From the NCBI GenBank assembly GCA_017420455.1, contig JAFOJB010000444.1:1-17996 (forward strand): a stretch of DNA of 17,996 nucleotides, given 5' to 3'. Under the pieces are notes generated by a model that was not told the DNA's origin, did not search any database, and saw only the letters and a list, made by a program, of their open reading frames with translations. Both the position numbers and the translations under genes were made by a program. Of the stretch, positions 3,324 through 15,628 are shown one piece after another (position 1 is the stretch's first letter; each line of letters begins with the position of its first letter). The DNA comes from Blautia sp. (GTDB taxonomy: Bacteria; Bacillota; Clostridia; Lachnospirales; Lachnospiraceae).

Positions 3324-3746
3324 ATGAATCTGAGGGAAACGATGAATACTCTGCTGGACAAAGCAGAAGAAGCGGTAGATAAAGCCCAGGAAGCCTGGGT
3401 AAACGCAGATATGGATACGAAGCTCCACGATGGAGCACGCTCCGCAATGGAAACGATGGGTACGCTGATGAACAAGGCGGAAGAAGCGGTAGACAAGGCC
3501 CAGGAAGCCTGGGTAAACGCCGATATGGACACGAAGCTTCATGATGGAGCACAGGCCGCAAAAGAGAGGGTTTCTGATTTTATAGAAAAGAACGAACTGG
3601 ATAAGAAAGCGGCTGCCGGCGCGGCAGTGCTGAAGGAAAAGGCTGTGGAAGCAAAGGACAAGGCAAAGGAAGCCTGGGAAAAGTCCGATATGGATGAGAA
3701 GCTTAAAGGCGTGATGGACGATATTAAGGATACCCTCGGCTTATGA
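3324..3746 (+). CDS. Repetitive amphipathic-helix protein preceding the nitrogenase-like genes
   Basis: A 140-aa protein, Ala/Lys/Glu/Asp-rich, with no signal peptide or membrane segment and no cysteine. It is built from repeats: residues 5-38 recur at 43-76 (period 38 aa), and a degenerate third unit lies near 104-127. Each unit has an EAW followed by a DMD and KL motif, giving amphipathic helices of the late-embryogenesis/apolipoprotein-like kind. I do not recognise a named family. The start is supported by AAGGAGG at 3310-3316. The stop overlaps the next gene's start by 4 bp (ATGA at 3743), so the two are translationally coupled. A small soluble helical protein made stoichiometrically with a nitrogenase-like reductase could be a scaffold, chaperone or protective partner; that is inference. 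Being real is well supported by the repeat conservation; function is unknown. Confidence 0.85.
   Translation: MNLRETMNTLLDKAEEAVDKAQEAWVNADMDTKLHDGARSAMETMGTLMNKAEEAVDKAQEAWVNADMDTKLHDGAQAAKERVSDFIEKNELDKKAAAGAAVLKEKAVEAKDKAKEAWEKSDMDEKLKGVMDDIKDTLGL
3336..3551 (+). repeat. In-gene 102-bp direct tandem repeat, period 114 bp
   Basis: Copy 1 spans 3336-3437 and copy 2 spans 3450-3551. Over the 26-codon core (residues 13-38 versus 51-76) the proteins are identical, while the DNA differs at eight codons, all synonymous (AAA/AAG, GCA/GCG, GAT/GAC, AAA/AAG, GCA/GCC, GAT/GAC, CTC/CTT, CAC/CAT). This is an old duplication held by selection on protein sequence, not a fresh slippage product. Confidence 0.95.
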
Positions 3747-6454
3747 TGCAGATTGCGATCTATGGAAAGGGCGGGATCGGAAAATCCACGATCTGCGCGA
3801 ATCTGTCCGCGGCTCTGGCCATCGAAGGAAAAAAGGTGCTGCAGATCGGGTGCGACCCGAAACACGATTCCACACGTCTCCTTCTGTCTGGAAAGATCCT
3901 TCCTACAGTGCTGGAGTATCTTCGGAGTGTCCCGAAGGAAGAAGCCCGGCCGGAGGAAATCCTCAAGGCAGGCTTCAAAGGGATCGGGTGTATTGAGGCA
4001 GGCGGCCCGAAGCCGGGGGTCGGCTGCGCAGGCAGAGGAATCATTTCCCCCTTTGAGTTTCTGGAAAGAAATAAGGTCAAAGAGAAGTATGACCTGATCC
4101 TTTACGATGTACTGGGGGACGTGGTCTGCGGAGGCTTTGCCGTTCCCATCCGGCGGGAATACGCAGACGCGGTATTTCTGGTGACCAGCGGGGAGTTCAT
4201 GGCCCTCTATGCCGCAAATAATATTCTCCGGGGGATCCGGAATTACGATGGGAAGGAGCATAAAAGGGTCGCAGGGATCATCTTTAACCGGAGAAATGTG
4301 GCGGGAGAAGAGGAACGGGTGGAGCGCTTTGCCGCAGCCGTACATCTTCCAATCTGCGCCAGAATCCCCAGAAGCGATGCCTTTGCCAGGGCAGAGGAGA
4401 AAAAGTGTACAGTGACAGCTCTGGAATATGAGAGGATGCAGGGATTTTCTGCAAAAGAGAAGGGTTCTTTCCGGGGCAGGGGATCTCAACCGGGAAATCA
4501 GACAGGAAATCAGACAGGAAATCAGGCAGATCATATTCTGGATACGCCTCCGTCTCAGGAAGTGTACGCAGATGAGTACCGGATATTTCTGAAACTGGCG
4601 CAGGAAATTGCCGGGGGCCTTCCTCTCTGCGAGGCACAGCCTCTGGAGGATGAGGAGCTGGAGAAAGTGGTGCTGGAAGAAGGCAGCACAGGAAGTCTGA
4701 ATCTTCCTCAGGACGGAACTGCTTCCACAGGATGGCTGCACACTTCCTGGAAAACACAGGAACCCCTCACTGCAAAATGGGTACATGCCGCCTGGAAAAC
4801 GCAGGGGGAAAGTGTTTCAGGGGAAAGTACAGAGACAGTCCATAAACTGATGGAAGAGGCAGTCTCAGTGGAAGGGATGCGGATCGACGACAAGTTACCG
4901 GAGGAGACAGCCTCGGATAAGGGAATGTCGAAAGTCGACGGTCTGCAGGAGCATACAGGTGCAGGATCGGATTTCCAGATACCCCTGAGAGATCATGGAG
5001 AAGTCCCCGCAAAGAGACCTCCTCTCTACGGCTGCGCCTTCAATGGCGCGGTGACTACAGCGGTGCGTCTGTCCGATGCCATTGTGATCGCCCACGCGCC
5101 AAAAGCCTGCGCCTTCTTTACCTGGCAGAACATTACCTCCCCAGGCCGTAAGAACCTTTTCAACAGGGGAATTCTTCTTCCTTCTGCCATCAGTCCGAAT
5201 TTTGAAAGCACCGATCTTTCACAGACAGAGGTAGTGTTCGGCGGGATGGACAGGCTGAAGGCTTCTGTCCGGGCAGCGCTGGACAGAAAGCCCGGAGCTG
5301 TGATCGTTGTGAGCTCCTGTACCAGCGGGATCATCGGGGACGATATCCGGGAGGCGGAAAACCTTTCAACGCCCGAAATTCCGGTGTTGGTGATTCCTGC
5401 CGATGGGGATATCGCCGGTGATTATATGGAAGGGATCCGCATGTGCCTTCATACGGTGGCGGAAGGTCTGATCGAACGGTATCCGGAGAAACGCCCCGGG
5501 ACCGTGAATATCGTCGGGGAAGTAGGGGTGTCCAACAATGCGGAAGTAAATTTCCGGTGGATAAAGGGACTGCTGGGGAAAATGGGAATCCGCATCAACT
5601 GCAGGTTTCTCGGAAACGCGAGCGCAGCCGAAATGCGGAATTTTCTTGCGGCGCCTCTGAACATCCTGGCAGTGGATAGCGCCGATAATACGGAGCTGAA
5701 AACCTGGCTGATGGAGAACTATGGCTGCAGGTTTCTTCCCGGAGCTCTGCCCACAGGCTTTCAGGAGACGAAGGAATTTGTCGGAAGGATCGCGGAGTTT
5801 TTTGAGAAAGAGCCTCCGGCAGAGGAAACTGCAGGACCGGAAAGCATCGGAACAGAGGAAACCACAGAATCGGAAAGCATCGGAACAGAGGAAACAACAG
5901 GACCTGAAAGCATTGGAACACAGGGAGAGAAAGCTGATAAAAGATCCCGGCCACAGATGGAGAAGCCGCTCCACAGACTGGCAGAGGCTGCTCTCCGGGA
6001 GGAGGAAAAGGGGTACCATAAGGCGATCGGGGAGCTGCGGCCGCTTCTTTCCGGGAAAAAGCTTCTCATGACGACTATCAGTACCAATATGGACTGGCTC
6101 CTCCTGGCTGCGGAGGACGCAGGAATCGAGGCAGTCTGGGTAGGCGTCCTGGATTATCTTCATCAGGGAATCAGAATATGCCGCAGTGAAAAGGTCCAGG
6201 CAGTAACGCAGGAGCTGTTCGATATCCGGACAGCGGAGAAAAAGATAGAGGAGCTGTCTCCGGATATCGTGGTAGCCAATTATACCACAGCGTTTTCTCC
6301 GGGAAATTACATTCTGGACAATATGCCCATGACGGCGCAGGCCGGGACGCTTTCCGGCGTCAGCGTGCTTCGGCGGTGGGCGCTGGGGCTTGCAGGACGG
6401 AAGGAGGGGGAATGGCTGCATGACAGAAAGCTGTATCAGAAGTATTTCGCCTGA
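3743..6454 (+). CDS. NifH-NifD fusion: nitrogenase-like reductase component 2 plus component 1 alpha in one chain
   Basis: A 903-aa fusion. Residues 1-290 form an iron-protein domain with P-loop GKGGIGKST (8-16), switch I GCDPKHDST (36-44), and the [4Fe-4S] ligands Cys95 (PGVGCAGRGI, which also keeps the Arg that is ADP-ribosylated in NifH) and Cys129 (DVLGDVVCGGF). Residues 291-427 are a low-complexity linker. Residues 428-903 form a nitrogenase component 1 domain with three cysteines placed like the NifD P-cluster ligands: Cys431 (LYGCAFNG), Cys456 (HAPKACAFF) and Cys526 (SSCTSGIIGDDI). The region aligning with NifD Cys275 (PLNILAVDSAD) has Val, and the His442 region (MPMTAQAG) has no His, so FeMo-cofactor is unlikely. 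An acidic ESIGT repeat insert lies at 690-735. The gene overlaps the preceding gene (ATGA) and the following NifK-like gene (35 bp). By family, ATP-driven electron transfer from an Fe-S dimer to the component 1 cluster is expected; the substrate is unknown. Confidence 0.9.
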   Translation: MMQIAIYGKGGIGKSTICANLSAALAIEGKKVLQIGCDPKHDSTRLLLSGKILPTVLEYLRSVPKEEARPEEILKAGFKGIGCIEAGGPKPGVGCAGRGIISPFEFLERNKVKEKYDLILYDVLGDVVCGGFAVPIRREYADAVFLVTSGEFMALYAANNILRGIRNYDGKEHKRVAGIIFNRRNVAGEEERVERFAAAVHLPICARIPRSDAFARAEEKKCTVTALEYERMQGFSAKEKGSFRGRGSQPGNQTGNQTGNQADHILDTPPSQEVYADEYRIFLKLAQEIAGGLPLCEAQPLEDEELEKVVLEEGSTGSLNLPQDGTASTGWLHTSWKTQEPLTAKWVHAAWKTQGESVSGESTETVHKLMEEAVSVEGMRIDDKLPEETASDKGMSKVDGLQEHTGAGSDFQIPLRDHGEVPAKRPPLYGCAFNGAVTTAVRLSDAIVIAHAPKACAFFTWQNITSPGRKNLFNRGILLPSAISPNFESTDLSQTEVVFGGMDRLKASVRAALDRKPGAVIVVSSCTSGIIGDDIREAENLSTPEIPVLVIPADGDIAGDYMEGIRMCLHTVAEGLIERYPEKRPGTVNIVGEVGVSNNAEVNFRWIKGLLGKMGIRINCRFLGNASAAEMRNFLAAPLNILAVDSADNTELKTWLMENYGCRFLPGALPTGFQETKEFVGRIAEFFEKEPPAEETAGPESIGTEETTESESIGTEETTGPESIGTQGEKADKRSRPQMEKPLHRLAEAALREEEKGYHKAIGELRPLLSGKKLLMTTISTNMDWLLLAAEDAGIEAVWVGVLDYLHQGIRICRSEKVQAVTQELFDIRTAEKKIEELSPDIVVANYTTAFSPGNYILDNMPMTAQAGTLSGVSVLRRWALGLAGRKEGEWLHDRKLYQKYFA
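4493..4528 (+). repeat. 12-bp tandem repeat (GNQT x3) inside the NifH-like domain
   Basis: Three head-to-tail copies of a 12-bp unit (GGAAATCAGACA-like) encode GNQT-GNQT-GNQA, residues 251-262. They interrupt the NifH fold just before its C-terminal helix (residues 274-290). Confidence 0.85.
4733..4804 (+). repeat. Linker repeat WLHTSWKTQ / WVHAAWKTQ
   Basis: Residues 331-339 and 346-354 of the fusion repeat with a 15-residue period (GGATGGCTGCACACTTCC versus TGGGTACATGCCGCC at the start of each). A further weaker pair, KLMEEAVSVEGM and KLPEETASDKGM, follows at residues 368-395. The linker between the NifH and NifD halves thus grew by small duplications. Confidence 0.7.
5840..5920 (+). repeat. 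33-bp tandem repeat (ESIGT, about 2.5 copies) inside the NifD-like domain
   Basis: ESIGT recurs at residues 700, 711 and 722 of the fusion protein with an 11-residue period; the DNA copies are nearly identical (GAAAGCATCGGAACAGAGG). The acidic insert lies between two Rossmann-like subdomains of component 1. Confidence 0.85.
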
Positions 6455-7847
6455 CGGTCTTACCGGAATAATCTTTGCCCTGGAAGGGATGAAGAAAACA
6501 ATCGTTCTGTTTAACGGTCCTATGGGATGCCGATTCTATCACAGCACGACCTCCGGCTTCCTGGTCATGCGGCCTTTGCTTTATCTTCCCGTGAATGAAA
6601 AGGGGGAGAGGGCTCCCGTAGATTACAATTACCTGAACGACTGGTTCTTCCGGCAGGACCGGGTTCCGTGCACCTATCTTGACGGATATGACTATGTCTA
6701 CGGTACCCGGGATAAGGTACGGGAAGCGCTGCTGTTCATCCGGGAAAACATTGATTTCGATCTTCTCGGGATCGTGAACTCGCCCGGAGCAGCCCTGATC
6801 GGGGACAATCTCCTGGAAATCGCAAGGCAGACCCTGGGAGGCAGCAGAGTGGTGATGCTGGAATCGCCCGGCTATTCCATCTCCTTTGAAGAAGGGTACA
6901 GTGAAGCGGCTTACGCCCTTCTTTCCCAGGTTGCGGCGCCGTTCTGGAAGGGGCAGGAGACAGATTTCGCTGTCAGCCGTAATGTGGCAGGCATCAGCCA
7001 GATGTCATCTGACAACAATGAGGGAGCGTACAAAGCTTCCATAAACCTCCTTGGTATTTCCATCTGGAATCGGTATTTTGAAGGTGATATCAAAGAATTA
7101 AAACGTCTTTTTTCACTCTGCAGGATCGAAGTAAATGCAGTACTCTGCGCCGACAGTTCCCTGGAAGAGCTGTATTCTATGCCGGATGCAGACCTGAATG
7201 TAGTGCTCGACCCGGAGATGGGGCTTCTGGCGGCAAAATACATGGAGGAAGAATTCTCTGTCCCCTTCTATGTCTGCGATACCCTGCCCATCGGTTTTTC
7301 CGCCACGGAGAAGATGATGCGGGAAGTCTGCGCCAGACTGGAAGAGATCTCATCCTCCGGCCGCACGGAAAAAGCTGCTTCTCCCATCCAGACGGAAATT
7401 CATCCGGAATTCCCCGGGACAGCCTGCCATTTCCGGACGGCGCAGAAGGCCGCCCCCTTCGTTTCCAGCCTGGATACCTTCACAGAAGAGATGGAGAAGG
7501 CACGGGCTCTTGCCTTTTACAAGATAAACGGGATTTACCAGATGTACGGAAAGCCCAGAGGAGTTTCGTTCTGTGTGGTGGGAAACACCGCCCGGAAGAA
7601 GGCATACACTTCCTTTCTCACCACCTATCTCGGGATGGAGGAGACCGATGCAGGCCACGCAGAACTCCTGTTTTCCAACGCCAACGTGATCTCCGAAATG
7701 ATGCTGAAGAACCGGACCTTCTGCGGCATCGAAATCGAACTGCCCGGCATGGGATATGTGGACCTCACCCTGAAGACCCACCTGGGAATCGAAGGGACGC
7801 TGCTTCTGATCGAGCAGGTCCTGAACGGAATTATGTCCCGCTTATGA
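6420..7847 (+). CDS. NifK-like nitrogenase component 1 beta-type partner subunit
   Basis: A 475-aa member of the oxidoreductase/nitrogenase component 1 family. Cys5 (MTESCIRSISPDG) and Cys37 (FNGPMGCRFYHS) match the first two P-cluster cysteines of NifK. The third position is lost: the element that reads CxxxVIGDDL in NifK is NSPGAALIGDNL here (residues 120-131), with Ser/Pro and no Cys. Cys84 (RVPCTYLDGYDYVYGT) lies nearby and could substitute; that is speculation. I chose ATG 6420 because it has AAGGAGGGGG at 6401-6410 and starts just before the conserved Cys. An in-frame ATG at 6390 has no such site. The gene starts inside the end of the NifHD fusion (35 bp overlap), so the two chains should be made together and assemble as a heterodimer or heterotetramer. 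A Rossmann-type nitrogenase subdomain continues to the C-terminus (GKPRGVSFCVVGNTARKKAY, GIEGTLLLIEQ). Confidence 0.87.
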   Translation: MTESCIRSISPDGLTGIIFALEGMKKTIVLFNGPMGCRFYHSTTSGFLVMRPLLYLPVNEKGERAPVDYNYLNDWFFRQDRVPCTYLDGYDYVYGTRDKVREALLFIRENIDFDLLGIVNSPGAALIGDNLLEIARQTLGGSRVVMLESPGYSISFEEGYSEAAYALLSQVAAPFWKGQETDFAVSRNVAGISQMSSDNNEGAYKASINLLGISIWNRYFEGDIKELKRLFSLCRIEVNAVLCADSSLEELYSMPDADLNVVLDPEMGLLAAKYMEEEFSVPFYVCDTLPIGFSATEKMMREVCARLEEISSSGRTEKAASPIQTEIHPEFPGTACHFRTAQKAAPFVSSLDTFTEEMEKARALAFYKINGIYQMYGKPRGVSFCVVGNTARKKAYTSFLTTYLGMEETDAGHAELLFSNANVISEMMLKNRTFCGIEIELPGMGYVDLTLKTHLGIEGTLLLIEQVLNGIMSRL

Positions 7848-7854
7848 GAAAAAT

Positions 7855-7881
7855 GAGAAAAAGGGACGGTTCCTTTTTCTC
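7855..7881 (+). repeat. Hairpin repeat, copy 1 (loop GACGGTT)
   Basis: A perfect 10-bp inverted repeat, GAGAAAAAGG and CCTTTTTCTC, closes the loop GACGGTT. It begins 8 bp after the stop of the NifK-like gene. It could act as a transcription terminator or 3' stabiliser for that operon. The same loop and near-identical stem recur at 8731 and, with a different stem, at 17973, so it is a dispersed repeat as well. Confidence 0.9.
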
Positions 7882-8829: not shown

Positions 8830-8902
8830 GGAGGGTTAGCTCAGCTGGGAGAGCGTCCGCTTGACGTGTGGGAGGTCATGGGTTCGAGCCCCATATCCTC
8901 CA
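8830..8902 (+). tRNA. tRNA-Val (anticodon GAC)
   Basis: A full cloverleaf. The acceptor GGAGGGT pairs with ATCCTCC and the D-stem is GCTC/GAGC. The anticodon arm is TCCGC-TTGACGT-GTGGG, with T33 and anticodon GAC reading GTC codons. The T-arm is ATGGG-TTCGAGC-CCCAT and the discriminator base is A. The 3' CCA is not encoded and must be added by the nucleotidyltransferase. Its length is 73 nt. It sits alone, not in a tRNA cluster, and no attachment-site repeat of its 3' end is visible elsewhere in the window. Confidence 0.95.
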
Positions 8903-9960: not shown

Positions 9961-10042
9961 GTACAAATGATTTCAGTGTGCTTTCTGTGCTGGGATTATT
10001 GATCGTCTTCAGATAAACCATAAAATGAAGGAGGGAATTTTC

Positions 10043-11464
10043 ATGAGCCTGTTCACCTTCGAGGGAGAAGAGCGCGCCCAAGGCTTTTCTGCCCTGAAAG
10101 ATGAAGTTTTCTCCAGATTGAGAACAATCTGGGAAAATGACAACCCGGAAGGGCTTCTGACATTTGTGGGAGGGGTACATCCGTACGAGGGTAAGGAACT
10201 GACGAAGGATCTTCCGCTGGAGCGCTTTAAGCCTCAGGGAGAGATGGTCTTTCCGGTTTCACAGCATATCGGAGCGCCTGCCACGCCTCTTGTGAAAAAG
10301 GGGGATAAAGTGCTTCGCGGGCAGATGATCGCGGAGGCAGGCGGCTTTGTGTCTGCCCATGTGTTTTCATCCGTCTCCGGCACTGTCAAGGCCGTGGAAC
10401 CACGCCTGGTGCCCACAGGGGCAATGGTAAACTCCATCGTCATCGAGAATGACGGGGAATACACCGAGGTGGAATATACGCCCGCAGAGCTTTCAGAGCT
10501 TTCCAAAGAAGAAATCCGCGCCAGAATCCGCGCCGGAGGCGTCGTCGGAATGGGCGGAGCCGGTTTCCCGACGGATGTCAAGCTTTCTCCGAAGGAGCCG
10601 GACAAGATTGAGTATGTCATGGTAAACGGAGCGGAGTGCGAACCCTATCTTACCAGCGACCACAGAAGGATGCTGGATGAACCGGAAGCGATCGTCGACG
10701 GTCTCCGCTGTATCCTGGCTCTTTTTGACAATGCGCAGGGCTGCATCTGTATTGAAAACAACAAGCCGGAGTGCATCGAGCGTATGCAGGAGCTGGTGAA
10801 GGACGAGCCCCGCATGGAGGTGAAGGTCCTGCTTACCAAATACCCACAGGGCGGTGAGCGCAATATCATCAAGGCTGTCACAGGACGGGAGATCAATTCC
10901 ACGATGCTTCCGGCAGATGTGGGCTGTGTCGTGGATAACGTGGATACGGTTTCCGCCATCGCGGACGCTGTTCTCCGCGGAAAGCCGGTCATGAGCAAGA
11001 TCGTCACCGTCACCGGAAATGGTGTAGTCAGCCCGAAGAACTTTCTTGCACCCACCGGTACGGATATGTACGAGCTCATCGAAGCCTGCGGAGGCCTGAG
11101 GGACGGGGTCACCAAGGTCATCGCCGGAGGCCCCATGATGGGCTTTGCCATGTATGATCTTCATGTGCCCTGCACCAAGACCACTGCGGCATGTACCTGT
11201 TTTGTGGAGGATCCGGTCCTGAAGGATGTGGAAACCGCCTGTATCAACTGCGGGCGCTGTGTGGAGGCCTGTCCTTCCCACGTTCTTCCCACCAGGCTCG
11301 CAGCCTTCGCGGACAGGGGAGATCTGGAAAGCTTTCAGGAGTTCGATGGCATGGAGTGCTGCGAATGCGGCTGCTGCAGCTATGTATGTCCGGCAAAACG
11401 GCAGCTCACCCAGAGCATCAAGTCCATGCGCCGGATGATCCTGAACAACAGGAAGAAGAAATAG
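10043..11464 (+). CDS. rnfC: RnfC, NADH-binding peripheral subunit of the Rnf complex
   Basis: A 473-aa subunit of the membrane ferredoxin:NAD+ oxidoreductase, on the cytoplasmic side, carrying the NAD(H) site and FMN. It shows the hallmark GGVHPYEGKEL (43-53), the glycine-rich nucleotide loop GGVVGMGGAGFPTDVKLSP, and NGAECEPYLTSDHRRM, as in the related 51-kDa Complex I subunit. Two ferredoxin-type clusters lie near the C-terminus: CINCGRCVEACP (~399) and CCECGCCSYVCP (~438). ATG 10043 has AAGGAGGG at 10028-10035; an in-frame ATG at 10025 lies upstream of that site and is rejected. Most RnfC proteins begin only a few residues before the GGxHP motif, so the ~40 residues ahead of it are an N-terminal extension. 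First gene of rnfCDGEAB. Confidence 0.95.
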   Translation: MSLFTFEGEERAQGFSALKDEVFSRLRTIWENDNPEGLLTFVGGVHPYEGKELTKDLPLERFKPQGEMVFPVSQHIGAPATPLVKKGDKVLRGQMIAEAGGFVSAHVFSSVSGTVKAVEPRLVPTGAMVNSIVIENDGEYTEVEYTPAELSELSKEEIRARIRAGGVVGMGGAGFPTDVKLSPKEPDKIEYVMVNGAECEPYLTSDHRRMLDEPEAIVDGLRCILALFDNAQGCICIENNKPECIERMQELVKDEPRMEVKVLLTKYPQGGERNIIKAVTGREINSTMLPADVGCVVDNVDTVSAIADAVLRGKPVMSKIVTVTGNGVVSPKNFLAPTGTDMYELIEACGGLRDGVTKVIAGGPMMGFAMYDLHVPCTKTTAACTCFVEDPVLKDVETACINCGRCVEACPSHVLPTRLAAFADRGDLESFQEFDGMECCECGCCSYVCPAKRQLTQSIKSMRRMILNNRKKK

Positions 11465-11479
11465 GGGAGGGCTTTATCG

Positions 11480-12460
11480 ATGGAGCATAACTTTCATGTA
11501 TCATCAAATCCGCATGACAGAGCCCCGATGACCACCAGCCGGATCATGCAGCTTGTGGTGCTGTCGCTCTTGCCTGCGACTGTATTTGGTATTTTCAACT
11601 TCGGGCTCCGGGCCCTTCTGGTGGTGATCGTCACCGTAGCCTCCAGCGTATTCTTTGAGTGGCTTTACTGCCGCCTGATGAAAAAACCCAACACAATAGT
11701 GGATTTCAGCGCTGTCGTGACAGGCCTTCTTCTGGCTCTGAACATGCCCGCGAGCATTCCGCTGTGGATTCCGGTGCTTGGAAGCGCCTTCGCCATCATC
11801 GTGGTCAAGGAGCTTTACGGCGGCCTTGGACAGAACTTTATGAACCCTGCGCTTGCAGCCAGATGTTTCCTGCTGATCTCCTTTGCAGGAAGAATGACGA
11901 ATTTTACGACCTCGGAAAAATTCCGCGGCGCAGTGGATGCCGTTTCCGGCGCAACGCCTCTGGCTTCGCTGAAAACCAACGGCTTCGCGGAAGGCTCTGT
12001 ATCTCTGTGGCATCTGTTTATCGGAAATATTCAGGGAACCATCGGAGAGACTTCTGTGCTCTTTATCCTTTTCGGCGCGCTGATCCTCCTGTATTATAAG
12101 GTCATCAGCCCGAAGCTTCCCCTGGCCTATATCGGGAGCTTTGCCCTTTTCGTACTGCTGTACATGATGTTCACCAACGCGGACTTTTCCCTGCGGTACT
12201 TATTTACCCAGCTCTTCGGAGGCGGCCTGATGTTCGGTGCCTGGTTCATGGCCACAGATTATGTTACCAGCCCTATCACAGAGAAAGGGCGGATCATCTA
12301 CGGATGCTTCCTGGGGATTCTGACGGGAATCTTCCGTATCTTCGGACCCTCTTCGGAAGGAGTCTCCTATGCCATTATCATTGGAAACCTTCTGGTACCG
12401 GTCATTGACCGATACACCAGACCGGTTGCCTTTGGGAAGGGAGGGGCGAAAAATGAATAA
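11480..12460 (+). CDS. rnfD: RnfD, membrane flavoprotein subunit
   Basis: A 326-aa polytopic membrane protein (NqrB/RnfD family), with hydrophobic segments through most of its length. The covalent FMN site is the SGAT motif at residues 156-159 (AVDAVSGATPL), where Thr159 should carry phosphoester-linked FMN. The conserved GGLGQNFMNPALAARCFLL precedes it. GGGGAGGG at 11464-11471 gives the ribosome site, overlapping the rnfC stop. It overlaps the rnfG start by 8 bp. The length is normal for the family. It should conduct electrons and, with RnfE and RnfA, form the ion path. An ApbE flavin transferase is needed for the flavin and is not in this window. Confidence 0.95.
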   Translation: MEHNFHVSSNPHDRAPMTTSRIMQLVVLSLLPATVFGIFNFGLRALLVVIVTVASSVFFEWLYCRLMKKPNTIVDFSAVVTGLLLALNMPASIPLWIPVLGSAFAIIVVKELYGGLGQNFMNPALAARCFLLISFAGRMTNFTTSEKFRGAVDAVSGATPLASLKTNGFAEGSVSLWHLFIGNIQGTIGETSVLFILFGALILLYYKVISPKLPLAYIGSFALFVLLYMMFTNADFSLRYLFTQLFGGGLMFGAWFMATDYVTSPITEKGRIIYGCFLGILTGIFRIFGPSSEGVSYAIIIGNLLVPVIDRYTRPVAFGKGGAKNE

Positions 12461-13244
12461 TCCCTTAGATAAGATCAAAAACAAGATCCTCCACGATACC
12501 GCAGCCATCACCATCATCACACTGGTTTCCGGACTGGCGCTGGGGCTTGTCCATGCGATTACCGCGGGACCTATCGCCATTCAGGAGGCAAAGGCAAAGG
12601 AAGAAGCCTACAAAGCGGTTTTTGAGGAGGCCGGTTCCTTCCAGACAGTGTTTGATGAGCAGGATGCTTCTGTGGAGGCGGCCCTGGACGAGAATGGCTT
12701 TGGCGGCCAGGATATCGATGAAGCCATGCTGGCCGTGGACGAGAACGGAGAGACTCTGGGTTATGCCTACACGGTGACTACTCACGAGGGCTACGGCGGC
12801 GATATCCAGTTCACCATGGGCGTAGAAAACGACGGTACCATGACGGGTATCTCCATCCTCTCCATTTCCGAGACGGCAGGTCTTGGAATGCGGGCGACCA
12901 CAGAGGATTTCAGGAGCCAGTTTGAAGGAAAGGAAGCAGATGAAAACCTGGTCTACACCAAGAACGGGGCTTCCAGAGATAACGAGATCGACGCCTTAAG
13001 CGGCGCTACGGTCACGACAAAGGCCATGACAAACGGCGTAAACGCCGGCCTGGTGGCTTATCGGTACCACGAGGAGAACGGCGTGAAGATCGCAGTGCCG
13101 GCAGATGAGGAAAACACAGCAGAAACGACCGGTGCGGAAAACGAAACCGCTCTGGAGGCAGAGCCTTCAGAGGAAACAGTTTCCGAGGAGGATACCGCCG
13201 AAGTTGAAGACGATACTGAGGAGAAGGAGGAGAATGAAGGATGA
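12453..13244 (+). CDS. rnfG: RnfG, covalent-FMN subunit with acidic C-terminal tail
   Basis: A 263-aa protein with one N-terminal membrane helix (about 17-38) and an extracytoplasmic FMN-binding domain. The flavinylation motif SGATVTT has Thr186 as FMN acceptor, and HEGYGGDIQF and SETAGLGMR are typical of RnfG/NqrC. ATG 12453 has GGAAGGGAGGGG upstream. The frame is open earlier (12369) but lies inside rnfD with no site. The last ~45 residues are almost all Glu, Asp, Thr and Ala, an acidic tail beyond the usual domain end. It overlaps rnfE by 4 bp (ATGA), which implies translational coupling. Confidence 0.93.
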   Translation: MNNPLDKIKNKILHDTAAITIITLVSGLALGLVHAITAGPIAIQEAKAKEEAYKAVFEEAGSFQTVFDEQDASVEAALDENGFGGQDIDEAMLAVDENGETLGYAYTVTTHEGYGGDIQFTMGVENDGTMTGISILSISETAGLGMRATTEDFRSQFEGKEADENLVYTKNGASRDNEIDALSGATVTTKAMTNGVNAGLVAYRYHEENGVKIAVPADEENTAETTGAENETALEAEPSEETVSEEDTAEVEDDTEEKEENEG

Positions 13245-14242
13245 AATCGAATACACCGATGGAACGTCTGCTTAACGGCATCATCAAAGAAAATCCCACC
13301 TTCGTCCTGATGCTGGGTATGTGTCCGACTCTGGCAATCACAACGTCAGCCAGCAATGGTATCGGAATGGGACTTACCACCACGGTGATCCTGGCAGCCT
13401 CGAACCTGATCATTTCCCTGCTTCGGGACTTCATTCCGGACAGAGTCCGTATGCCATCCTACATCGTTGTGGTGGCATCCTTTGTTACGGTAGTGGAGCT
13501 TTTGCTGCAGGGCTTTATCCCGGCCTTGTACAGCGCGCTGGGAATCTATATCCCGCTGATCGTGGTAAACTGCATCATCCTGGGGCGTGCAGAAGCCTAC
13601 GCCTCCAAAAATGAGCCGGTGGCTTCTCTGTTCGATGGAATCGGCATGGGTCTCGGCTTTACCGTCAGCATCACCTGCATCGGTATTGTCAGAGAGCTGC
13701 TTGGTTCCGGAAAGATCTTCGGTTTCCAGCTTCTTCCGCTGGCAGATGCGGCAGCAGGAAAGATCGGATTTGAACCGATCACCATCTTCATTCTTGCTCC
13801 CGGAGCGTTCTTCGTTCTGGCCGCTCTTTCCGCCCTTCAGAACAAGCTGAAGATCGGAGCGGCGAAACGCGGGATCGATCCCAGCAACCCGGAGAACTGT
13901 GACGGCGGCTGCGCATCCTGCGGAAATACAGCCTGCAGGGAAGCAAAGGCTGCCATAGAGGCAGAAGGAAACGCTGCCGAAAAGGAACCGGCAGACGGGA
14001 AAACAGGCGATGCAGATTCTGCAGTAACAGAAGACGGGAAAGCAGACAGCGCAGAACCTGCAGATACACAGAACGGGAATACAGAGGATGCAGCGCCGGT
14101 TTCTGAGGAAGCAGAGAAAGAGCCGGAAACAGAAGCTGCAGAGGATACTGGATTTCCCGCAGAGGAAATCAGCGAAGAGAAACCGGAAGAGACAGAAGAG
14201 CCGGTTGCAGAAGAAGATGAAAGGGGGACGGATGAGTCATGA
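13241..14242 (+). CDS. rnfE: RnfE, membrane subunit with long cysteine/acidic C-terminal extension
   Basis: A 333-aa protein, whereas RnfE is normally about 200-230 aa. Residues 1-205 are the usual six-helix membrane domain with Cys28 (LGMCPTLAIT) and Cys111 (VNCIILGRAEAYAS). These are half of the four cysteines that hold the intramembrane [2Fe-2S] cluster shared with RnfA. Residues 220-232 then carry a C-x3-C-x2-C-x4-C cluster (CDGGCASCGNTAC), followed by about 100 residues rich in Glu, Ala, Thr and Pro, without membrane segments and presumably on the cytoplasmic side. The four cysteines could bind iron-sulfur or zinc; that is inference. It overlaps both neighbours by 4 bp (ATGA), with RBS-like GGAGAAGGAGGAGAATGAAGG before the start. 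Confidence 0.93.
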   Translation: MKSNTPMERLLNGIIKENPTFVLMLGMCPTLAITTSASNGIGMGLTTTVILAASNLIISLLRDFIPDRVRMPSYIVVVASFVTVVELLLQGFIPALYSALGIYIPLIVVNCIILGRAEAYASKNEPVASLFDGIGMGLGFTVSITCIGIVRELLGSGKIFGFQLLPLADAAAGKIGFEPITIFILAPGAFFVLAALSALQNKLKIGAAKRGIDPSNPENCDGGCASCGNTACREAKAAIEAEGNAAEKEPADGKTGDADSAVTEDGKADSAEPADTQNGNTEDAAPVSEEAEKEPETEAAEDTGFPAEEISEEKPEETEEPVAEEDERGTDES

Positions 14243-14814
14243 AAGAACTGTTTCTTATCATTGTAGGTTCTGCCCTGGTTAACAACGTAGTTCTCAGCCA
14301 GTTCCTGGGACTTTGTCCTTTCCTGGGGGTATCCAAAAGCACCAAAACCGCTTCCGGAATGGGCGGAGCTGTCATTTTTGTCATTACGCTTTCCTCCTTT
14401 GTGACCAGCATTATCTACAGGTTTATCCTGGTTCCTCTGAACCTGACCTACCTGCAGACGATCGTTTTCATCCTGATCATTGCCGCCCTGGTACAGTTCG
14501 TGGAGATGTTCCTGAAGAAATCCATCCCCTCCCTGTATACGGCGCTTGGTGTATATCTTCCCCTGATCACCACCAACTGCGCGGTTCTGGGCGTTGCTCT
14601 TCTGAACGTGCAGAAGGAGTACGGAATCCTGAAGAGTACGGTAAATGGTTTTGCTACGGCAGTAGGCTTTACCATCGCCATCATCCTGATGGCAAATCTC
14701 CGGGAAAAGATCGAATATAATGATATTCCCCAGTCGTTCAAAGGGTTCCCCATTGTTCTGGTAACTGCCGGGCTGATGGCCATTGCGTTCTTTGGCTTTT
14801 CAGGACTGATTTAA
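14239..14814 (+). CDS. rnfA: RnfA, membrane subunit
   Basis: A 191-aa, six-helix membrane protein of the RnfA/NqrE family, standard length. The conserved cysteines Cys26 (LGLCPFLGVSK) and Cys114 (TTNCAVLGVAL) complete, with those of RnfE, the ligands of the [2Fe-2S] cluster in the middle of the membrane. RnfA and RnfE are inverted-topology homologues. The ATGA overlap with rnfE indicates coupled translation, and the upstream AAGGGGGA acts as ribosome site. The gene is followed 13 bp later by rnfB. Confidence 0.96.
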   Translation: MKELFLIIVGSALVNNVVLSQFLGLCPFLGVSKSTKTASGMGGAVIFVITLSSFVTSIIYRFILVPLNLTYLQTIVFILIIAALVQFVEMFLKKSIPSLYTALGVYLPLITTNCAVLGVALLNVQKEYGILKSTVNGFATAVGFTIAIILMANLREKIEYNDIPQSFKGFPIVLVTAGLMAIAFFGFSGLI

Positions 14815-14827
14815 GGAGGGCCGGGAT

Positions 14828-15628
14828 ATGATTATTGTGGCAATACTTGCGGCAACCATTCTGGTGGCCCTGGTCGGACTTTTTATCGGCTTATTCCTGG
14901 GAGCTGCAGGAAAGGCCTTCGAGGTGGAAGTAGATGAGAGGGAGGTCGCTGTCCGTGCGGCGCTTCCGGGAAACAACTGCGGCGGATGCGGCTATCCGGG
15001 ATGCGACGGATTGGCAGCAGCCATCGCAAAGGGAGAAGCCCCTGTGAACAAATGTCCTGTAGGCGGTGAGGCAGTCGGAGCCGAGATTGCGAAGATCATG
15101 GGACAGGAGATGGAAGAGACGGTCCGTATGGCGGCCTTCGTGAAATGCTCCGGTACCTGTGAGAAAGCGCGGACCAAGTTCGACTACTCCGGCGTAGAGG
15201 ACTGTGAAATGGTGGTGCAGCTTCCCGGAGGCGGCCCGAAAACCTGTACCTACGGCTGTCTGGGCTTTGGAAGCTGCGTGAAGGCCTGTCCTTTTGACGC
15301 GATCCATATCGTGGACGGCATTGCGGTGGTAGACCGGGAAGCCTGCAAGGCCTGCGGCAAATGTGTTGCAAAATGTCCGAGACACCTGATCGAGCTCTTC
15401 CCCTATGAGCAGAAGATCTTCGTGGGCTGCAGCTCTCATGACAAAGGCAAGGGAGTTACCTCTGCCTGCGATGTAGGCTGCATCGGATGTAAGAAATGTG
15501 AAAAGACCTGCCCGAATGGGGCGATCACGGTGACAGATTTCGTAGCGCATATCGACGCGGAGAAATGTACCAACTGCGGTGCCTGCAAAGAAGTCTGCCC
15601 GAGAGGCATTATCCGAAAGGAAGCATAG
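14828..15628 (+). CDS. rnfB: RnfB, ferredoxin-accepting iron-sulfur subunit
   Basis: A 266-aa protein with one N-terminal membrane helix (1-28) and a cytoplasmic iron-sulfur domain. Cys51, Cys54, Cys59 and Cys76 (NCGGCGYPGC ... CPVGG) bind a [4Fe-4S] cluster. The middle domain carries CSGTCEKA and GPKTCTYGCLGFGSCVKAC. Further ferredoxin motifs follow: CKACGKCVAKCP, CIGCKKCEKTCP and CTNCGACKEVCP, so at least four clusters in addition to the first can be expected. It takes electrons from reduced ferredoxin (or gives them in reverse). The start has TTAAGGAGGG before ATG 14828. Last gene of the operon; no clear U-tract terminator follows, only the hairpins at 15688-15807. Confidence 0.96.
   Translation: MIIVAILAATILVALVGLFIGLFLGAAGKAFEVEVDEREVAVRAALPGNNCGGCGYPGCDGLAAAIAKGEAPVNKCPVGGEAVGAEIAKIMGQEMEETVRMAAFVKCSGTCEKARTKFDYSGVEDCEMVVQLPGGGPKTCTYGCLGFGSCVKACPFDAIHIVDGIAVVDREACKACGKCVAKCPRHLIELFPYEQKIFVGCSSHDKGKGVTSACDVGCIGCKKCEKTCPNGAITVTDFVAHIDAEKCTNCGACKEVCPRGIIRKEA

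Follow-up and report, generated by a model that had tools for sequence, protein, structure and literature searches.

A conserved fusion of nitrogenase iron-protein and component 1 domains in Blautia sp. and its relatives, with a cobalamin riboswitch neighbourhood in part of the family

The window analysed in the current work, meaning the whole stretch of 17,996 nucleotides of contig JAFOJB010000444.1 from a Blautia sp. assembly (GCA_017420455.1), contains a gene, here named HD, in which a NifH-like iron protein is fused to a NifD/NifE-type component 1 domain, and directly behind it a gene, named K, that encodes a NifK/BchB-like partner. The fusion is real, conserved and sparse, and is not an assembly artefact. 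Considering its residues and domains, the HD-K pair very probably represents a nitrogenase-like reductase devoid of the iron-molybdenum cofactor (FeMoco). The most far-reaching interpretation considered here, to which we assign a probability of about 0.4, is that of a corrinoid reductase tied to the import of vitamin B12 and provided with a leashed iron protein, in which a single NifH dimer would serve both sites of an (HD)2K2 particle. Such an enzyme would reduce imported cobamides (at the macrocycle, the cobalt or a side group) prior to their use or remodelling, the subclade of the window being a stand-alone version.

Positions 3743-6454 of the forward strand form an uninterrupted frame, free of stop codons, which is translated into 903 residues. 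In this protein the Pfam profile Fer4_NifH matches residues 2-228 (E 1.3e-89, 300.7 bits against a cut-off of 25) and Oxidored_nitro matches residues 431-693 (E 3e-55, 188.2 bits against a cut-off of 28.6), so that both domains that define the nitrogenase superfamily score above their curated cut-offs, and the earlier sequence-only reading of NifH and NifD halves within one 903-residue protein is borne out by the open frame and the domain search. That reading had also pointed to a NifK-like partner, which is indeed encoded at positions 6420-7847 and likewise matches Oxidored_nitro. Homologues with the fused architecture are numerous: 2099 protein matches were obtained at E values up to 0.001, and the best 120 of these, the window's own copy included, are all fused. 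For the comparison of loci a set of 23 fused loci from 22 genomes was used; G1234 is truncated where its contig stops, and the other 22 loci, which come from 21 genomes, are intact.

It is scarcely credible that the fusion is an artefact, either of an assembly error that joined two genes or of a protein which is in reality made as two products. The genome of the window is an assembly of 593 contigs with a completeness of 78%, and the inserts of HD contain tandem repeats, which would favour such an error; against it, the HD-K pair recurs with continuous frames at all 22 intact loci, both domains are present in 120 of the best 120 matches, and the fused NifH halves (n=17) constitute a single clade of common descent. 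A hidden stop or frameshift, which the sequence-only reading had entertained, is therefore without support. The tree in question comprises 60 fetched sequences. It represents 17 intact fused loci, the other five (L119, L121, L122, L123 and L138) having been omitted as near relatives of rows that were kept. Two further apparent fusions (G418 and G787) contain an internal stop; in both, nifH and nifD are distinct genes that share a reading frame, and these cases were removed from the fused count.

In taxonomic genome samples, which overlap with one another, the fusion was encountered in two of 150 genomes of the window's family (G000 and G058), in at least one of 246 genomes of its order, in at least three of 341 of its class (following removal of G787) and in at least three of 299 of its phylum (following removal of G418). 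Beyond these, it is present in four of 16 genomes of the family of G1097, in four of 148 of the family of G901, in eight of 198 and then at least 16 of 393 of the order of G901, in one of 25 of the order of G594, and in one of four of the order of G1321. Loci L004 and L005 were added to the locus set separately. Genome G1097 carries two complete fused loci (L120 and L121), each with a cobalamin riboswitch approximately 1.4 kb past HD.

The iron-protein half had been read as intact, and the alignment agrees with this: none of the best 120 listed proteins, the window copy included, deviates in the P-loop (residues 8-16), Cys95 or Cys129, and the two cysteines are also found at 22 of the 22 intact loci. 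In the D half, Cys431, Cys456 and Cys526 are equally constant (22/22 loci, 120/120 best listed proteins) and align with cysteines 70, 96 and 162 of a NifD protein from locus L105, which upholds the earlier mention of three P-cluster-like cysteines; we take the latter three to be Cys62, Cys88 and Cys154 of Azotobacter NifD. A fourth cysteine of D, Cys620, is present at 21 of 22 loci and in 119 of the best 120 listed proteins. K contains one cysteine that is invariant (22/22, and again in 18 aligned rows) and a second one that occurs at 17 of 22 loci; the invariant residue presumably occupies the position of the ligand aspartate of DPOR, as judged from BchB residues. Since an eight-iron P-cluster needs six cysteines (three in D and three in K) and four are invariant, namely three in D and one in K, a P-cluster is judged unfit, and these four thiolates would fit one [4Fe-4S] cluster instead. 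At the two NifD positions that provide the FeMoco ligands, which we assume to be Cys275 and His442 in Azotobacter numbering, neither cysteine nor histidine is found at any of the 22 loci. The ligands for a P-cluster plus a FeMoco-type cluster, as used by methylthio-alkane reductase (Mar), are likewise lacking in the HD-K loci, and identity of HD-K with nitrogenase or Mar is discounted on cluster ligands.

When the pair is compared with the known members of the superfamily, one of its closest counterparts is DPOR (BchL with BchN-BchB, or ChlL with ChlN-ChlB), which has in common with HD-K an ATP-driven iron protein and a two-subunit core without FeMoco ligands; in HD-K, three cysteines and a fourth residue may similarly ligate a [4Fe-4S] cluster. 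In profile scores K comes closest to BchB, and the B subunit of DPOR is its best match by fold. The DPOR cluster plan is described as using an Asp ligand (PMC3464626), and its [4Fe-4S] cluster as sitting next to the substrate (PMC7242693). HD-K differs from DPOR in the fusion of H and D, in a fourth ligand which would be Cys rather than Asp, and in the NifE-like character of D; moreover, the scores do not reach the cut-offs of the DPOR families (219.9 against 345.15 bits for BchL, 77.6 against 490.35 bits for BchB). CfbCD, the enzyme of F430 synthesis, is described as a tetrapyrrole reductase (PMC7242693), and the NifH half of HD scores slightly higher with the CfbC profile (297.9 bits) than with that of nifH (297.4 bits); this score remains below the CfbC cut-off of 402 bits, and CfbCD has a single CfbD-type subunit whereas HD-K has two component 1 chains. 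With nitrogenase NifHDK and with NifEN the pair shares the fold, the P-loop, Cys95 and Cys129, and the three P-cluster-type cysteines of D, from which it departs by FeMoco ligand positions that are empty at 22 of 22 loci and by the one invariant Cys of K. A scaffold or maturase of the NifEN kind, which would build a metal cofactor for another enzyme, is improbable: in the 78%-complete genome of the window, PF00148 detects HD, K and one weak match below cut-off, and thus no second pair that could receive the cofactor.

The architecture has been mentioned once before, and what is new here is the B12 riboswitch neighbourhood. In the passage concerned, Dos Santos et al. (2012; PMC3464626) devote one sentence, without data, to reading frames that join nifH- and nifE-like sequences ahead of nifN-like genes, and then set these aside; architecture and gene order are those of HD-K, and the window pair displays the features by which that type was defined, i.e. 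nifH and nifE-like sequences in one open reading frame (ORF) with an adjacent nifN/K-like gene. That passage provides no sequences, tree or function for the fused type, whose cases may belong to the HD-K clade. From the sequence-only proposal of a candidate undescribed reductase system, the candidate reductase can be retained, given the poor fit to every named family, and the word undescribed has to be given up in view of this mention. Neither a function for the fused frames nor a tie to B12 was found in the open-licence literature, and no link between nitrogenase and B12 was found in the open-licence part of PubMed Central, where the nearest papers, judging from passages of each, are PMC10418091 and PMC12751083.

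HD of the window is the longest among the best 120 listed proteins (903 residues, the other 119 ranging from 703 to 814), because it contains three low-complexity stretches that consist partly of tandem repeats (Table 1). In the same 120 proteins, the stretch at residues 226-276 measures 51 residues against a median of 6, with one other row at 55; the linker at 308-424 measures 117 residues against a median of 42, within a range of 34-117 and with 90 as the next largest value; and the stretch at 690-745 measures 56 residues against 3 in every other row. The structure model of HD (mean predicted local confidence, pLDDT, 70.8; pTM 0.60) consists of two folded parts with a disordered stretch between them, where pLDDT is below 50 at residues 313-363 and 373-429, and is of low confidence around the cluster loops. 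Given this low confidence and the variable length, the linker looks like a flexible leash that would permit ordinary docking, and the fixed 1:1 tether with a distinct electron-transfer geometry, as previously suggested, is not sustained. The fusion would nevertheless set the stoichiometry, with one NifH domain per D: the NifH dimers of an (HD)2K2 particle would number one and not two, which is half the complement of a D2K2 core with two docked dimers. Either both sites would be served by this single dimer, or particles would share with their neighbours.

The link to B12 is based on the loci surrounding the fused gene. A cobalamin riboswitch (RF00174) was located within 10 kb of this gene at 11 of the 23 loci (L097, L120, L121, L122, L123, L124, L125, L128, L138, L139 and L141), where 2.0 were expected, by means of Rfam scans and 16 whole-genome searches; the limit of 10 kb corresponds to how far the fetched regions extend, having been chosen after the first riboswitch results. 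Among the first 17 loci, eight have a riboswitch as compared with 1.1 expected (P 2e-6), and for five of the 17 it lies within 2 kb (0.3 expected). The six later loci yielded three against an expectation of 0.5-0.9 (P 0.01-0.05), for which the number of riboswitches per genome was assumed to be 10 or 18, and since these loci were scanned over 6-10 kb a side, this expectation is too high rather than too low. Borderline cases are L124 (G1060), included at 9.8 kb, L097, whose match is weak (34.6 bits), and L108 (G901), excluded at 11.4 kb; L138 (G1371) and L128 (G1260) belong to the same genus.

Most of these 11 loci adjoin genes for transcobalamin-like proteins or energy-coupling factor (ECF) transporters. 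At L097 the pair is situated inside a one-strand row of ECF-transporter and transcobalamin-like genes in which no gap exceeds 18 bases and which has the weak riboswitch in front; L124 has a similar row, and there the riboswitch precedes by 9.8 kb on the same strand. At L122, L128 and L138 the riboswitch and the pair lie on one strand, as do the intervening genes, with the exception of an opposite 88-codon frame in L128 that we take as spurious. At 10 of the 11 loci with a riboswitch, neighbouring proteins match DUF4430 above its cut-off; the neighbours that enter the tallies of DUF4430, PF01902 and ECF proteins were picked by eye, and the long surface protein of L138 lies outside the profiled set. 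A DUF4430-type domain together with a toroid partner and CbiO/CbiQ-type neighbours has been interpreted as a B12 scavenging system in the relevant part of Burroughs et al. (2007). Furthermore, a PP-loop ATPase of the diphthine-ammonia ligase family (PF01902) is encoded at most about 15 bases upstream of HD at L120 and L128 according to its profile, and genes in the same place at L121 and L123 were assigned through BLAST kinship to that of L120; an amidating-type enzyme beside a reductase would recall the pairing of CfbB with CfbCD in F430 synthesis. The cobalamin riboswitches near about half of the relatives examined suggest that the substrate is a B12-type molecule and not nitrogen gas.

A number of observations speak against a corrinoid reductase of DPOR type. 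When loci are grouped by family, the riboswitch link is present in only four of eight groups (1.0 expected, P 0.005), and kinship among loci makes the riboswitch P values too small. The riboswitches need not control HD, as those of L125, L139 and L141 lie 130-240 bases from the HD start on the opposite strand, and those of L120-L123 are found 1.4 kb past HD, behind K. Binding of B12 by DUF4430 is, in these loci, a prediction, and the matches of the ECF S components, which stay below cut-off, are to folate and riboflavin S components, so that B12 is a putative ligand of these transporters at most. No riboswitch was detected within 10 kb at L004, L005, L095, L096, L108, L118, L119, L137, L140, L142 or G1234, some of these being short contigs or having been scanned over less than 10 kb a side, nor in the 18-kb contig of the window at E values up to 1, where the contig ends; at L095, L096 and L118, no sub-threshold match appeared up to that same value. 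Elsewhere in the genome, three riboswitches occur in the case of the window, and two each for L095 and L096. The window, L004, L005, L095 and L137 constitute one supported subclade (100/99), in which the riboswitch is absent within 10 kb, and the corrinoid interpretation of the window copy consequently relies on descent, with the ancestral substrate presumed to be kept; the substrate of this subclade may have changed. Finally, the top profiles of the D half are NifE and NifD and not BchN, which tells against simple descent from DPOR, and among solved structures compared by sequence the Mar enzyme (E 3.7e-10) precedes the DPOR B subunit (5.3e-10) by a small distance as the relative of K.

This last likeness, together with the component 1 fold common to both, could suggest that HD-K reduces a small molecule or a C-S bond by means of nitrogenase-type clusters, in the manner of Mar, which uses nitrogenase metalloclusters (as described in PMC12552129). 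HD-K is without ligands for such clusters, since the FeMoco positions are empty and K, with one invariant Cys and a second at 17 of 22 loci, offers too few for a six-Cys P-cluster, and this alternative is considered very unlikely. The same machine might instead act on another tetrapyrrole (haem, sirohydrochlorin, an F430-like compound or a chlorin), with the B12 neighbourhood resulting from shared uptake or chance. The DPOR-B-like nature of K, the CfbC profile as the highest for the NifH half (297.9 against 297.4 bits) and the 12 of 23 loci without a riboswitch within 10 kb are compatible with this idea, which the riboswitch excess and the unreached cut-offs of the CfbC, BchL and BchB families render unlikely. 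ATP-driven electrons of low potential would be well matched to the formation of cobalt(I), and HD-K could accordingly be imagined as a reductive activator or repair enzyme of B12 proteins, which would deliver electrons to protein-bound cob(II)alamin and not to a free substrate. Although the B12 neighbourhood would agree with this, the profiled neighbours, within the picked set, are surface and uptake proteins and not corrinoid methyltransferases, and the proposal is regarded as rather improbable.

A corrinoid as the substrate of a DPOR-like, ATP-driven tetrapyrrole reductase comes a little short of an even chance; it is the most probable single explanation and the one envisaged in the following scheme. 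HD and K would be the two genes of a nitrogenase-like reductase with no part in nitrogen fixation. Two HD chains would bring their NifH domains together as a dimer that binds ATP and contains a [4Fe-4S] cluster reduced by ferredoxin. The leashed domains would then dock on the D-K core, where a second [4Fe-4S] cluster, with three cysteines of D and one of K as its ligands, would receive their electrons of low potential. As there is no FeMoco site, the cavity may take an organic substrate, as in DPOR; this would most likely be a tetrapyrrole and, among these, a corrinoid taken up from outside, whose reduction at a ring double bond, at the cobalt or at an axial or side group would be part of B12 salvage.

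Table 1 Features of HD, K and their immediate surroundings in the window.
Feature	Position	Strand	Basis and remarks
Small ORF, 140 residues, with 114-base internal repeat	3324..3746	+	4-base overlap with HD start
HD, fused NifH-NifD/E-like protein, 903 residues	3743..6454	+	Start at 3743 or 3746 (ATGATG)
NifH domain and tail, residues 1-312	3743..4678	+	P-loop codons 3764-3790, Cys95 4025-4027, Cys129 4127-4129
Low-complexity insert, residues 226-276	4418..4570	+	12-base repeat 4493-4529; residues 244-271 with pLDDT below 50
Linker, residues 308-424, mostly predicted disordered	4664..5014	+	Structure model, length comparison
NifD/NifE-type domain, residues 425-903	5015..6451	+	Cys431 5033-5035, Cys456 5108-5110, Cys526 5318-5320, Cys620 5600-5602
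Low-complexity insert in D domain, residues 690-745	5810..5977	+	33-base repeat 5820-5924, 3.2 copies
K, NifK/BchB-like partner, 475 residues	6420..7847	+	35-base overlap with HD; Pfam Oxidored_nitro E 7.7e-39; invariant Cys codon 6528-6530
10-pair palindrome just past K	7855..7881	.	Consensus scan, listed for the minus strand

The start of K is most likely the ATG at 6420, which follows an AGGAGG-type site, rather than position 6390 as given in the mechanical ORF list. The small ORF in front of HD is possibly translated together with it, and the palindrome past K is a possible end of the HD-K transcript, obtained from a consensus scan that carries no evidence of function. A complete rnfCDGEAB-type operon is located 2 kb past K (10025-15628); a link of Rnf to HD-K was rejected, as a BLAST comparison of 15 loci disclosed no shared Rnf cluster, and the adjacency in the window is therefore taken as chance. 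The window also contains a tRNA gene (8830-8902) and, at positions 1-2211, a region that resembles a membrane permease and continues into a hybrid histidine kinase, such as is also seen near the fused gene of L005 (7603-10404). Among riboswitch-free loci, DUF3786 is encoded near or directly before the fused gene at L004 (18855-19499), L095 (11733-12386) and L096 (5824-6429), and was dismissed as a common partner because it is present in these three loci only. A small Cys-rich protein is encoded directly before HD on the same strand at L108 (11144-11440, PF04071) and L119 (11288-11584, alike).

Unfused NifHDK-like sets are a separate system. Such sets of the Coprococcus catus type, located beside hydrogenase-maturation genes, are described in the corresponding part of PMC3464626. 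The unfused NifH homologues of the window's family exhibit 48-59% identity and are separated from the fused clade by a 100/100 branch in the 60-sequence tree. In six of the seven regions containing them, hydrogenase-maturation-type genes (named by eye) adjoin, while the genes of the seventh, L105, look like a nitrogenase cluster; none of the seven contains a cobalamin riboswitch. The sets at L099, L100, L101, L102, L103 and L104 flank HypF, HypD and HypE (names given by eye), with two sets at several loci.

Some fused homologues are labelled as nitrogenase iron protein, and such labels can mislead nifH-based surveys of nitrogen fixation. A natural HD fusion would also be a convenient tool to trap the complex of an iron protein with component 1. 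If the B12 link holds true, the nitrogenase superfamily would gain a corrinoid reductase, and B12 salvage would gain an ATP-driven redox step.

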